Shown here: piece by piece, positions 51,103 through 57,676 of the stretch
Layout: every line of letters starts with the position of its first letter
Numbering within the stretch: the stretch's first letter is position 1
Origin: an uncultured Paenibacillaceae bacterium
Lineage (GTDB): Bacteria > Bacillota > Bacilli > Paenibacillales > K13
Reading direction: 5' to 3'
Assembly (NCBI GenBank): GCA_913056365.1
Contig: CAJXLT010000017.1
Location: forward strand, 1-64,000
Length of the DNA: 64,000 bases
The notes under the pieces: model-generated
Told to the model about the DNA's origin: nothing
What the model saw: the letters and a program-made list of their open reading frames with translations, nothing else
Database searches by the model: none
Made by a program: the position numbers and the translations under genes

Positions 51103-52260
51103 ATGCTTGTGGAAGGCATGATGCAAAAAGGTAAATTCGCTCGGTTACGGCGCTCGCTTGTGCTGACAGTTGGATTGTCATTGTTGCTTTCAACATCTGC
51201 AATGGCTACAGAAGAGGCAACAGAAGAGACAGGGGCGACTCCGAGTATGAATGTGTCCGCCACTTACTATCATAGCGTGGCTTACAACGAAAAAGGCGAT
51301 GTGTGGTACTGGGGCGGGCTTGCGGATGAGGTTGACGGTGAGCATAAGTTGCGAGATAATCGTCCTCAATTGATCGAGGGACTGGGTGATGTTGCGGCAA
51401 TTCATTCTTTTCAAGGTAATGAGGTCATCTTGAAGAAGGACGGGACAGTTTGGAAGTGGGGCACTGAGTATAGGCTAGTCAATGATTATAACCATGATGG
51501 ATTTACTGAGTTTCAGGAGCCTGAGAAGGTCGAGGGATTGCCTGAGATTGTGAAGATTTCGGTCGGCTCAATTGTCTCTGCCCTAGACATAGACGGCAAC
51601 GTCTGGGTATGGAATCCGTTTCCCGTATATAATACTACGCCACGCAAGATTACGAACATAACGGATGCCGAAGAAATTTCCATGAATGGCGACGGTGTGC
51701 TCCACATTTTGCTAGAGGATGGTACTGTGTGGAGATGGGAGACATTCGTTGAACGGCAGTTGAACATTGACTATGCTGCGGAGAAGGTGGATGGCCTACA
51801 AGATATCGTCTCGCTTTCCTCCGGTTATTCGGAACATAATTTCGCTGTGGATACGGATGGGACCGTCTGGGGCTGGGGAATGAATTTTAGAGGAGCATTA
51901 GGATTTCCCGTAACCACTGAACGAATTGAAGTGCCCACAATCATTGAGGGATTATCCGATGTGGCATTCATTACGACTAACTATACCACAACGTTAGTGG
52001 GGAAGAATGACGGTTCCTTATGGATTATGGGAGATGATGTAGGGGAAGGTGCTTCTTCGCACACATATGGTCCGGATTTGAGGAAGGTAGAGGGATTGGA
52101 GAAGGTAACATCCGTAGCTGCAGGTTACAAACATGCTGTGGCAGTTACTGAGGATGGTGAAGTATGGGCATGGGGAAGCAACTCAGCCGGGCAGTTGGGT
52201 GACGCGACCTTCGAGGACAGTCAGACCCCTATTCTAGTTTCATTAGATACCATGCACTAG
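51103..52260 (+). CDS. Secreted RCC1-repeat protein
   Basis: A 385-residue product with an N-terminal signal peptide (LRRSLVLTVGLSLLLSTSAMA, cleavage near residue 36) followed by seven-bladed RCC1-like repeats, visible as DGTVWKWG, DGTVWRWE, DGTVWGWG, DGSLWIMG and DGEVWAWG at about 50-residue spacing. It is probably an extracellular beta-propeller binding protein. It starts at ATG 51103 with GGAGAG upstream. Function unknown. Confidence 0.85.
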   Translation: MLVEGMMQKGKFARLRRSLVLTVGLSLLLSTSAMATEEATEETGATPSMNVSATYYHSVAYNEKGDVWYWGGLADEVDGEHKLRDNRPQLIEGLGDVAAIHSFQGNEVILKKDGTVWKWGTEYRLVNDYNHDGFTEFQEPEKVEGLPEIVKISVGSIVSALDIDGNVWVWNPFPVYNTTPRKITNITDAEEISMNGDGVLHILLEDGTVWRWETFVERQLNIDYAAEKVDGLQDIVSLSSGYSEHNFAVDTDGTVWGWGMNFRGALGFPVTTERIEVPTIIEGLSDVAFITTNYTTTLVGKNDGSLWIMGDDVGEGASSHTYGPDLRKVEGLEKVTSVAAGYKHAVAVTEDGEVWAWGSNSAGQLGDATFEDSQTPILVSLDTMH

Positions 52261-52345: not shown

Positions 52346-52510
52346 GTTATGCAAGTGACCACTCAATCCTGATATGATAAAAGAGGGGTTTGTCGACAAG
52401 GATCGAATGTATAGGAGAGCTGTCGATTGCAACCGGCGGCCTTTCTCTTTCGTACTACCTATAAATGGGATGGGCGTAGCCGTTCCTGCATACAGTGATG
52501 TATGAGTAAG

Positions 52511-52539: not shown

Positions 52540-52574
52540 GGAGAACAACAATAGAAGCTGAGGGAATGCATAGT

Positions 52575-54959
52575 ATGAACGCGGAATATGTGAACGGAGC
52601 CGATGCAGGCTATCGGCAGGCGGAGCAGAGGGCTGCCCGGTATTTTGCAGCCTTACACGAGCAAGTTAGGGAGAAGTCGTATGTGGCGACCCTGACTGCG
52701 GATTTTCAATTGTGGAGACAACAGCATATACGGTATCTACCATGGCAGACTCGCTTAGCACTTTCGCGGGACAAGGCCGCTTCCGGCAGTGATCACCACT
52801 ATATCCAGTGGATGGATCGAGCTGGCAAGCTGGACGATTATCTAGACCGCAGCATCTCCTATATATATATGAGAGACTTGGGCAAGGCGATGAATACGGC
52901 AGAGACTCGATCTGATATTGAGCGTTCTGTTACGGATTTGAAGCGATTCCTAATGGAACATGGTTCGTCCGATCAAGAGGGATATCCCGCTTACTTGAGC
53001 TTCGCCGCCTTGTATCGGTGGGGGCAGAGGGAAGGTGTGGAAGCCGCCGTGCTCTGGGTGGTCGACAAACTGGAGAAGGTAGCTGTCCATATTCCGCAGC
53101 AATTGAATGCGGAGCAAGCCCAGCGCAAGCTGATTAAGATTATTGTCGGTGTAGTGATGCATGTTAGGGAAGAGCTAGATGAGACTGTATCGGCTGCCGA
53201 ACGATCCAGAAGGCTAGATGAAGCGATACGCCTAGGCTATTCCTACGGTCTTACTTATCCGTTCATTGATGATCTGCTCGATTCGAGTGTGCTGACTGAT
53301 GAAGAGAAGGGGCGCTACTCCAGAATGATCCGAACGGCCTTGCTTACCCGTGCTGTTCCGAAGCTGGGGGAGTGGGCTGGTAAGAACAAGAGCGTGTTCC
53401 AATACATCCATGCAGAGCTGCGGGAAGCGTTCGAATATGTGAAGAACCAGCAACGGCCAGATATGGCGGAGGTATTCTTCGAGCAGGCTTATGTGTTCTT
53501 CCACGCACAAGAGATAGACCGTGCCAAGGATCTGTCTAACCCCTCCTATACGAACGAGCAGCTGTATATTCCGATCATCTTGAAGTCCGCTTCTTCCCGT
53601 CTAATATGCCGTACCGTGACGAGTGCTCCCGAGGACGAAGGATTTAACGAGCGCACATTCTATTACGGCATCTATAATCAGCTCGCTGATGATTTCACCG
53701 ATATGTTCGACGATGAGCGTGAAGGGGCGGTCACACCCTATACGTATTATCTGAAGTATCGGAACACACGCAACGATCTGATCAACCCCTTCGAATTATA
53801 CTGGACTGTCATTGCACACTTGATCCATCATGTGTATGACTCCGATGACAGAACTCGGGAGATCATACTCGATCGCGCGATCAACGGGCTTAAGCGATGC
53901 AAGAAGCGTGTAGGGAAGAAGAAGTATCGCTGGATTATGGAGGTCTTCGCTTCAGGGAATCCCGCCTTCTCACGACTCATCCAGCGACTTGTTCGGAAAG
54001 CAGACGATGTGGACTTCTTCGATAAGCGGCTACGCGATCAAGTGATCACGATGTTGAAGACAGAGAGGAAGGAAAAAGAAAGCTTCTTCGAGATCATTCA
54101 GACAGTCCGTCAGCAGATCAACACTAACCTCCTGATTCATAAGCCAGATGACTTGCCATCGATACAGACTCCCCTCATTGATGCAGCCAACTACAGCATG
54201 GAAGGGAACGGGAAGCGGCTGCGCCCGATCTTGACCTGGGTGATGGGGGTGCAGGAATATGGGCTGGATGCCTCTGCGATCATGCCGTTGCTGCGATCCT
54301 TGGAATATATGCATACAGCGTCACTCATCTTCGACGATCTGCCAACCCAGGATAATGCAGCTACCCGTCGAGGCAACCCGACACTGCATCAGAAGTACGA
54401 CAGCGCTACAGCGGAGTTAACCGGATTGTTACTGATGCAGAGGGCGGTACAGGAACAAGCGCTGCTGGATCAGTTCGAAGCGAAGCGCGTGCTTGCTCTG
54501 ATTCATTACGCTGCAAGAGCAGCCGAAGAGCTGTGCAACGGTCAGGCGATGGATCTCGCGTCCAAGGGCAGATCGTTGTCGCTGGAGGAGCTGACGACGC
54601 TCTGTCACTACAAGACGGGTATCGCCTTCGAAGCCGCCTTAGTCATGCCTGCCATTCTGGCTGGAATACCCGATTCGGAGATCGCACGACTGAAGACATT
54701 CGCTTATCATACGGGTATTGCCTTCCAGATCAAGGATGACTTGCTGGACGTGGAAGGCGATCTCGATGCCCTCGGCAAGCCGACGGGGCAGGATGCGAAG
54801 AACAACAATACGACGTTCGTCTCTGTATGGGGACAGGACGCAGCGAGACAGCGGATGTGGGAGCACTATTGCCTAGCTATGGAAGCCCTGCAGGAACTGC
54901 CGCGGCAGCCTGTCTTTCTGAAGCACTTATTGCATTATATTGTGAGCCGGAATAAGTAA
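52575..54959 (+). CDS. Fusion of a prenyl/terpene-synthase-like domain with a polyprenyl diphosphate synthase
   Basis: The protein of 794 residues has a clear C-terminal isoprenyl diphosphate synthase (from about residue 500): GNGKRLRP for IPP binding, first Asp-rich motif FDDLPTQD (about 587-594), second QIKDDLLD (about 718-725). The N-terminal half has no clear match I recognise but carries FIDDLLD (about 230-236) and NQLADDFTDMFDDE (about 368-381), spaced 140 residues apart as in class I prenyl and terpene synthases. ATG 52575 is chosen (AGGGA nine bases upstream); ATG 52566 is too close to that site. It could make a long prenyl chain and cyclise it, or be a heteromeric-like synthase. Confidence 0.75.
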   Translation: MNAEYVNGADAGYRQAEQRAARYFAALHEQVREKSYVATLTADFQLWRQQHIRYLPWQTRLALSRDKAASGSDHHYIQWMDRAGKLDDYLDRSISYIYMRDLGKAMNTAETRSDIERSVTDLKRFLMEHGSSDQEGYPAYLSFAALYRWGQREGVEAAVLWVVDKLEKVAVHIPQQLNAEQAQRKLIKIIVGVVMHVREELDETVSAAERSRRLDEAIRLGYSYGLTYPFIDDLLDSSVLTDEEKGRYSRMIRTALLTRAVPKLGEWAGKNKSVFQYIHAELREAFEYVKNQQRPDMAEVFFEQAYVFFHAQEIDRAKDLSNPSYTNEQLYIPIILKSASSRLICRTVTSAPEDEGFNERTFYYGIYNQLADDFTDMFDDEREGAVTPYTYYLKYRNTRNDLINPFELYWTVIAHLIHHVYDSDDRTREIILDRAINGLKRCKKRVGKKKYRWIMEVFASGNPAFSRLIQRLVRKADDVDFFDKRLRDQVITMLKTERKEKESFFEIIQTVRQQINTNLLIHKPDDLPSIQTPLIDAANYSMEGNGKRLRPILTWVMGVQEYGLDASAIMPLLRSLEYMHTASLIFDDLPTQDNAATRRGNPTLHQKYDSATAELTGLLLMQRAVQEQALLDQFEAKRVLALIHYAARAAEELCNGQAMDLASKGRSLSLEELTTLCHYKTGIAFEAALVMPAILAGIPDSEIARLKTFAYHTGIAFQIKDDLLDVEGDLDALGKPTGQDAKNNNTTFVSVWGQDAARQRMWEHYCLAMEALQELPRQPVFLKHLLHYIVSRNK

Positions 54960-54984: not shown

Positions 54985-55866
54985 GTGATAATCAATGACT
55001 CCCGCAGAACTCCACATGAGAATAACGAACCTATCTATATGGAAGAAGAATGGACAGCGCGCCCCCACAAGCCATTGCTAATGCTATATGCGTTAGGACA
55101 ATACTATAATCATAAACACATAGAGCTGTCTTACGAAGAAGTCCGGGAAGTACTCAAGGAACTATTAATCGAATATGGTCCGCCACGGAAATCCTATCAT
55201 CCCGAACAGCCCTTCGCGCGACTAGCTAGCGATGGCATCTGGCAGTTGAACCAAGCAGTCGACTTGAAGAGGCTTAGCGATAAACAACTTCGAGATGCAC
55301 ATATTCTAGCTGGTTTCACCCCTGAGGTCATTTCGTTATTGGAGGCCGATTCCTCTCTAGCGCAGTCTGTGGCTACACAGATACTGGAGGAGCATTTTCC
55401 CGATACATGGCATGAAGAAATACTAGAGGCAGTAGGTTTGGAGTTTCAGTTATATCGGCGCAAGCCGCGGGATCCTTATTTCCGGGATAAGGTGTTGCGA
55501 GCTTATGAACACAGCTGTGCAGTATGCGGGTTCAATGTGAGGCTCAATCGCAATCTAATTGCGGTAGAAGCTGCTCACATCCGTTGGCATCAAGCGGGTG
55601 GACCGGACCGTGAAGACAATGGCATTGCGTTATGTTCATTGCATCATAAATTATTTGACCGAGGAGTATTTACTATTTCCGATCAGTGGCATTTACTTGT
55701 ATCTGAAGAGGCCTATGGCACACACGGGTTCGAAGAATGGCTAATGCGCTATCATGGGCAACCAGTGCGGTCGCCAATTCGTCCAGAATATGCTCCGAGA
55801 GATATGTTCCTACATTGGCATATTCGTGAAGTGTTCAAAGGCAAGAGTCGATACATTGTGTCGTAG
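54985..55866 (+). CDS. HNH endonuclease of the phosphorothioate-DNA-binding type
   Basis: A 293-residue product. The N-terminal half has the sulfur-binding-domain hallmarks ARPHKPLLMLYALGQ and GPPRKSYHPEQPFARLASDGIW, and the C-terminal HNH has CAVCGFNVRLNR, EAAHIRWHQAGGPDREDNGIALCSLHHKLFD. Such type IV enzymes cut DNA carrying phosphorothioate (Dnd) modification and so exclude foreign modified DNA. The start is GTG at 54985 with AAAGGGGATA upstream. No dnd modification genes are in the window. It lies 25 bases after the fusion gene, likely the same operon. Confidence 0.85.
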   Translation: MIINDSRRTPHENNEPIYMEEEWTARPHKPLLMLYALGQYYNHKHIELSYEEVREVLKELLIEYGPPRKSYHPEQPFARLASDGIWQLNQAVDLKRLSDKQLRDAHILAGFTPEVISLLEADSSLAQSVATQILEEHFPDTWHEEILEAVGLEFQLYRRKPRDPYFRDKVLRAYEHSCAVCGFNVRLNRNLIAVEAAHIRWHQAGGPDREDNGIALCSLHHKLFDRGVFTISDQWHLLVSEEAYGTHGFEEWLMRYHGQPVRSPIRPEYAPRDMFLHWHIREVFKGKSRYIVS

Positions 55867-57289: not shown

Positions 57290-57676
57290 ATGCAGATTGA
57301 ATTCATCGATGATCTGTTGCAAACATCAATGTCAATTCGTTATAAAGCTCGGTCTATAACAATCGATCACCTAGTGGTTGATACTGGGGCTGCGCATTCT
57401 TTAATTTCTTCCGATATCGCGGCGCAAATCGGGATTCACTTTGAAAATGGTGATAGGCTTGTACGCAGCTTTGGCATTGGTGGGGATGAGTTCTCTTTTC
57501 GAAAGCAAATCGATCAGGTCAAGCTAGGCAATTTCATCCTTGACAATGCTTATATAGATTTTGGTGTCTTCCATGAGGAGATTAATCACATTAATGGACT
57601 CATTGGACTGGATATATTAAAACAAGGAAATATGATCATTGACCTGCATCAGATGGCAATGTATCGGGCATACTGA
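57290..57676 (+). CDS. Retropepsin-like aspartyl protease family protein
   Basis: A 128-residue single-domain protein with LVVDTGAAHSLIS (Asp-Thr-Gly) and GLIGLDILKQGNMIIDL near the end, as in retropepsin/SpoIIGA-type aspartyl proteases that work as dimers. It is intact, whereas the copies at 14526 and 17190 are broken. Coupled to the small partner gene. Target unknown. Confidence 0.85.
   Translation: MQIEFIDDLLQTSMSIRYKARSITIDHLVVDTGAAHSLISSDIAAQIGIHFENGDRLVRSFGIGGDEFSFRKQIDQVKLGNFILDNAYIDFGVFHEEINHINGLIGLDILKQGNMIIDLHQMAMYRAY

Follow-up and report, generated by a model that had tools for sequence, protein, structure and literature searches.

Can one bacterial polypeptide both make a prenyl diphosphate and turn it into a terpene? 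The question is raised by a gene at positions 52566–54959 (+ strand) of the window, i.e., the whole 64,000-nucleotide stretch of DNA from an uncultured Paenibacillaceae bacterium that was analyzed here. The original prediction described the gene product as a fusion of two prenyl-synthase-like halves and called for a search for homologues. The fusion is real: both halves lie in a single open reading frame of 797 amino acids without internal stop, and the search returned about 40 full-length fused homologues (about 781–871 aa; 57–67% identical) from Paenibacillus, Bacillaceae, and one Clostridium. The true start is probably the ATG at codon 4 (52575), because the homologues begin at a matching ATG and the spacing to the ribosome-binding site is better from there. 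The conserved ribosome-binding region, GAAGCTGAGGG in the window copy, was located at 52554–52564 by alignment of the upstream regions (this and all features of the fused gene and its upstream region given below are on the + strand).

The protein begins with a helical region (residues 1–140; 52566–52985), which is less conserved (mean pairwise identity 0.49), belongs to no known family, and contains a conserved segment, YLxRSxSY..mRDLG, at residues 92–106. A putative class I domain occupies the remainder of the N half (residues 141–490; 52986–54035; mean pairwise identity 0.68), and the C half consists of a polyprenyl diphosphate synthase domain (residues 500–797; 54063–54956). In the full-length model (pLDDT 83.7), a predicted continuous helix (residues 485–521; 54018–54128) passes from one half into the other.

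Homologues and gene neighborhood

Many spore-forming soil bacteria carry the fused protein. It is encoded at 40 loci, which belong to Paenibacillus, Neobacillus, Mesobacillus, Virgibacillus, Aquibacillus, Oceanobacillus, others, and one Clostridium. It is present in 28 of 61 relatives and in 6 of 299 genomes sampled across the phylum, and in the genomes searched the homologous frames are always open, at about 800 aa. An unfused N half was not seen in these genomes, which were searched with short peptide patterns that reach close kin only; distant or unfused relatives may exist. The distances among the N halves and those among the C halves are correlated (r = 0.88) and have equal means, thus the two halves co-evolve and are constrained to a similar degree. 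In the tree, the copy from Clostridium falls within the Bacillaceae branch (modest support), a placement that suggests acquisition by transfer. A Paraliobacillus homologue (L041, 4488–6850) has a stop within the matched stretch and is possibly a decayed copy. No report on the fused family was found in the literature searched, most subscription journals being outside its scope.

No flanking gene is common to the family beyond close relatives, therefore the fused enzyme probably works without a fixed gene cluster. The idea of a biosynthetic cluster around the gene was rejected on the same observation. In the window, the gene upstream of the fused gene (51103–52260) encodes a protein of RCC1 repeats, the N end of which resembles a signal sequence. 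Directly downstream, on the same strand, lies the gene of an HNH_2 endonuclease-domain protein (54985–55866), which is not common to the homologous loci, and a small bacterial protein with a retropepsin-like aspartyl protease domain (PF13975) is found at 57290–57676. The host genome encodes two stand-alone prenyl synthases (one FPP-type and one longer-chain-type), one stand-alone DUF2600 protein, and one SQS/PSY protein, and it gave no match for squalene-hopene cyclase. Since the host has stand-alone isoprenoid enzymes of its own, the fused protein adds to the normal isoprenoid supply and does not replace it.

Motifs and predicted folds of the two halves

The C half matches PF00348 with E = 8e-52 (176 bits; gathering cut-off 27). 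Its best solved relatives are geranyltranstransferases and GGPP synthases, and its predicted fold resembles that of FPP synthases with a TM of about 0.86 (0.81–0.91 by target) and an rmsd of 2–4 Å. The motifs comprise GKRLRP (residues 549–554), the FARM DDLPTQD (590–596; 54333–54353; pattern DDLPxQD), RRG (601–603), GQxMD (659–663), KT (683–684), and FQIKDDLLD (720–728), which includes the SARM DDLLD identified by alignment (724–728; 54735–54749). Among the 35 homologues aligned, the FARM, RRG, GKRxRP, GQxxD, KT, and SARM are invariant. Judged by profile, relatives, motifs, and predicted fold, the C half is a canonical short-chain trans-prenyl diphosphate synthase. The original prediction had credited it with all the usual motifs of a polyprenyl diphosphate synthase, which holds with a single deviation. 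The DxxxxKxT loop of canonical prenyl synthases carries Lys, in place of which nearly all members have N, T, or S (residue 748; 54807–54809); this replacement may change the activity or the product length of the C half. By the chain-length rule, a small residue five positions before DDxxxxD is a GGPP-type signature. Because A585 fits this signature, the product of the C half is most likely GGPP (C20), with FPP or GFPP as possible products. In comparison with bacterial FPP/GGPP synthases of the IspA/CrtE type (PF00348), the C half has their motifs and canonical fold, but it is joined to a 490-residue half, scores under the NCBIfam cut-offs (207 bits against 275 for FPP synthase and 167 against 460 for CrtE), and lacks the DxxxxK lysine.

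Two Asp-rich motifs, FIDDLLD and DDFTD, had been noted 140 residues apart in the N half, and the homologues bear them out: the Asp residues of DDLLD (235–239) and DDFTD (375–379) are invariant in 35 of 35 aligned sequences. By position, the first motif is FIDDLLD (residues 233–239; 53262–53282) and the second is DDFTDMFDD (375–383; 53688–53714). The N half has 12 invariant Asp columns, and shuffling its columns produced two invariant DDxxD in 0 of 20,000 trials, which means that the pair is not a chance outcome. An extra DDYLD at residues 90–94, unlisted in the original prediction, was considered as the true first motif and dropped, as its Asp residues vary among homologues. Furthermore, QxxD (315–318) and K-S (340–341; 53583–53588) are invariant and stand in prenyl-synthase order; the former belongs to QEIDRAK (315–321; 53508–53528) at the position of the prenyl-synthase GQxxD, and the latter is the likely counterpart of KT. 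These motifs lie at 235-315-340-375 in the N half and at 590-660-683-724 in the C half, with spacings of 80, 25, and 35 and of 70, 23, and 41, respectively. In the 35-sequence alignment, RRG is absent behind the first motif of the N half (235–239), and no clear GKRxRP was found, only the invariant RKL(I)K (187–191; 53124–53138; RKLIK in the window protein), a possible remnant of GKRLRP. The NSE/DTE triad of class I cyclases is absent from the N half, where the second motif reads DDxxDxxDD.

The N half had been said to belong to no recognized family, and residues 1–490 of the window protein indeed match no curated family over cut-off in Pfam or NCBIfam. Residues 287–385 align to positions 93–196 of the PF00348 profile with E = 0.0013 (18.4 bits, compared with the cut-off of 27), and matches to this profile at E ≤ 1 are found in the N halves of 16 of the 35 members, the best reaching E = 2.7e-6 (27.2 bits) over a different segment, which contains FIDDLLD. 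Prenyl-synthase profiles see the first motif of the N half as more like a second Asp-rich motif, and profiles built here from prenyl synthases rate the N half only slightly higher than shuffled sequences. Homology between the two halves was not significant in profile-profile comparison. Against PDB sequences the N half gave no match, and the profile search gave chance-level matches only. No Pfam match to SQS_PSY (PF00494) at E 1 or to DUF2600 (PF10776) was obtained for any of the 35 members, and the hhalign probability for DUF2600 was 0.2%. The N half was also considered as a DUF2600 (class IB) domain from DYLDRS and DDEREG...YY, recognized by eye, an assignment that fails in both Pfam and profile-profile comparison. 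In another Bacillota genome (G071:C25:363457-363945), a 527-aa open frame has a weak partial match to PF00348 and may encode another diverged isoprenoid-synthase-like protein.

The N half was modeled with AlphaFold2 from 35 sequences, and the all-helical model (pLDDT 83.5, pTM 0.84) was compared with 350,542 PDB chains. All of the 50 best fold matches are isoprenoid synthases (probability 0.93–1.0), including FPP, GGPP, octaprenyl, heptaprenyl, hydropyrene, and squalene synthases, human squalene synthase among them. The matches are weak, with a best E of 7.7e-3, a TM of 0.3 by query and about 0.32–0.47 by target, and an rmsd of 12–20 Å, whereas a comparable run with the C half gave a TM of 0.86. 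On the strength of the model, the N half is most likely a divergent or rearranged relative within the isoprenoid-synthase superfamily and not a standard copy. The original prediction was to be abandoned if this half turned out to have an unrelated fold. This did not happen, as the 50 matches are all isoprenoid synthases, but their low TM leaves room for doubt about the exact fold.

A candidate promoter upstream of the fused gene

An ECF-sigma-type promoter pattern, CAACC-N16-CGTA, is found at 52430–52454, some 135 nt upstream of the start codon. The spacing is AAC-N17-CGTA in the window copy and AAC-N16-CGTA in most homologues. AAC-N15/17-CGTA occurs upstream of 28 of the 41 copies and in 2.7% of random 300-base stretches from the same loci; the related copies are not independent and the proportion overstates the evidence, yet the element persists while its surroundings vary. 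Across an alignment of 19 upstream regions, CGTA never varies and GYAACC hardly does. The element, which has the form of an ECF sigma promoter, is present in most Paenibacillus copies and missing from most Bacillaceae copies. The predicted promoter would place the fused gene under ECF-sigma control, as in envelope stress, at least in Paenibacillus. Patterns of the sporulation promoters (sigmaE/F/G/K) show no excess upstream. An attempt to identify the ECF sigma factor from sites across the genome was given up because chance occurrences of the pattern are too numerous; the one candidate site that was checked is not adjacent to a sigma gene. In the Paenibacillus leader, pairing is conceivable between ACCTCATCCTCC and TTGAGGT, the ribosome-binding site, and several copies have no leader. 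A pairing of CCTCATCCTCC in the leader with the ribosome site was rejected, being absent in several homologues.

Possible activity of the fused protein

Chimeras of prenyltransferase and terpene synthase (PTTS) have been described as unique to fungi (PMC8307374). In the fungal proteins, e.g., fusicoccadiene synthase (PaFS), the diphosphate-consuming domain is N-terminal and the prenyl diphosphate synthase is C-terminal, and the fused protein has the same arrangement with a putative consuming domain. The parallel drawn in the original prediction stands for this order of a putative cyclase and a prenyltransferase but does not extend to the N half itself, which has no detectable sequence similarity to solved cyclases and carries DDxxD instead of NSE/DTE as its second motif. 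The fused protein also has the extra 140-residue N-terminal region, and its joint is predicted to be helical, whereas PaFS has a 70-residue flexible linker (PMC8190136). By its sequence, the N half is class I-like but not recognizably a PTTS terpene synthase, and we do not place the fused protein in the fungal family.

The DUF2600 class IB synthases (YtpB, tetraprenyl-beta-curcumene synthase) occur in the same bacterial groups as the fused protein, and their DYLD-type and D-rich motifs look like those of the N half by eye. In B. subtilis, ytpAB is driven by sigmaM, an ECF sigma factor, and a C35 terpene pathway begins with YtpB (PMC8144471); the fused gene has an ECF-type promoter pattern. However, DUF2600 proteins stand on their own, and neither Pfam nor profile comparison gave a significant match between them and the N half. 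Among the terpene synthases that evolved from prenyl synthases in insects (insect TPS) and fungi (ILTPS), those of insects did so through loss of IPP-binding residues (PMC12376265), and an Arg substitution is enough to convert a fungal GGPP synthase into a terpene synthase (PMC7484799). In both groups, the Asp motifs are kept and the IPP-binding motifs are changed (PMC12376265; PMC7484799), as in the N half. These enzymes consist of one domain, and their sequences clearly place them with FPP/GGPP synthases, whereas the N half is far more divergent.

We consider it somewhat more likely than not that the fused protein is a self-contained bifunctional terpene enzyme, in which the C half makes an allylic diphosphate and the N half ionizes it to a terpene. 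The C domain would form the allylic diphosphate, most likely GGPP, from DMAPP and IPP. In the N domain, D235/D236/D239 and D375/D376/D379(/D383) would bind Mg2+ and K340 would lie close to the diphosphate; ionization of the diphosphate and rearrangement of the chain, without addition of IPP, would yield a terpene that is a hydrocarbon or an alcohol, either linear or cyclic. A consuming rather than elongating N half is expected because a putative metal site is kept while the signatures of the IPP site are missing. The gene would act alone and would be switched on by an ECF sigma factor, at least in Paenibacillus; since such control is that of envelope stress, a membrane-active terpene is a plausible product. 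We propose more tentatively, and at somewhat short of even chances, that the protein is the bacterial counterpart of the fungal chimeras, with a terpene domain of a new class that originated separately within the isoprenoid-synthase superfamily and makes an undescribed terpene in spore-forming Bacillota under envelope-stress sigma control.

The N half might instead take the allylic diphosphate from the C half and prenylate an acceptor (a small molecule, a lipid head group, or a peptide, as ComQ does) or couple two chains head-to-head in the manner of squalene/phytoene synthases. A class I metal site without the NSE triad suits transferases; by eye, DDFTDMFDDxxxG...P..YY looks like the second motif in squalene/phytoene synthases and in DUF2600; and human squalene synthase appears among the fold matches. 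Such an activity nevertheless seems unlikely, given that SQS_PSY and DUF2600 are matched by no member in Pfam, that profile similarity to DUF2600 is lacking, and that no conserved partner gene adjoins the fused gene. Heterodimeric prenyl synthases with non-catalytic subunits exist, and a silent N half could similarly control the stability of the C half, its oligomer state, or the length of the chains that it makes, a role with which the predicted helix between the halves and the missing DxxxxK lysine are consistent. Regulatory subunits usually lose their Asp motifs, however, whereas here every Asp of both motifs is invariant in 35 sequences and the N core is as strongly conserved as the catalytic C half, making a silent N half quite improbable.

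That the N half, too, elongates prenyl diphosphates, so that both halves together build one long chain in two stages, is very unlikely. The order of its motifs and its weak similarity to PF00348 would agree with elongation, but the RRG and GKRxRP signatures of the IPP site are absent or unrecognizable, and the genome already has FPP-type and longer-chain-type synthases. We give even less credence to an unrelated helical domain whose Asp motifs serve another purpose: although the TM is low, the rmsd is large, and sequence homology alone is not conclusive, the top 50 fold matches are isoprenoid synthases without exception, the best single member reaches E = 2.7e-6 in Pfam, and the motifs are collinear.

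If the favored reading of a self-contained terpene enzyme is true, two-step, one-chain terpene synthesis would have been invented independently, with a fungal-type layout and an unrelated-looking first domain, in a widespread bacterial family in which annotation from the C half alone conceals the other 490 residues. The family would then be a new source of terpenes, easily tested since one gene should suffice, and would provide a lead to an undescribed envelope-stress lipid in Paenibacillus and its relatives.
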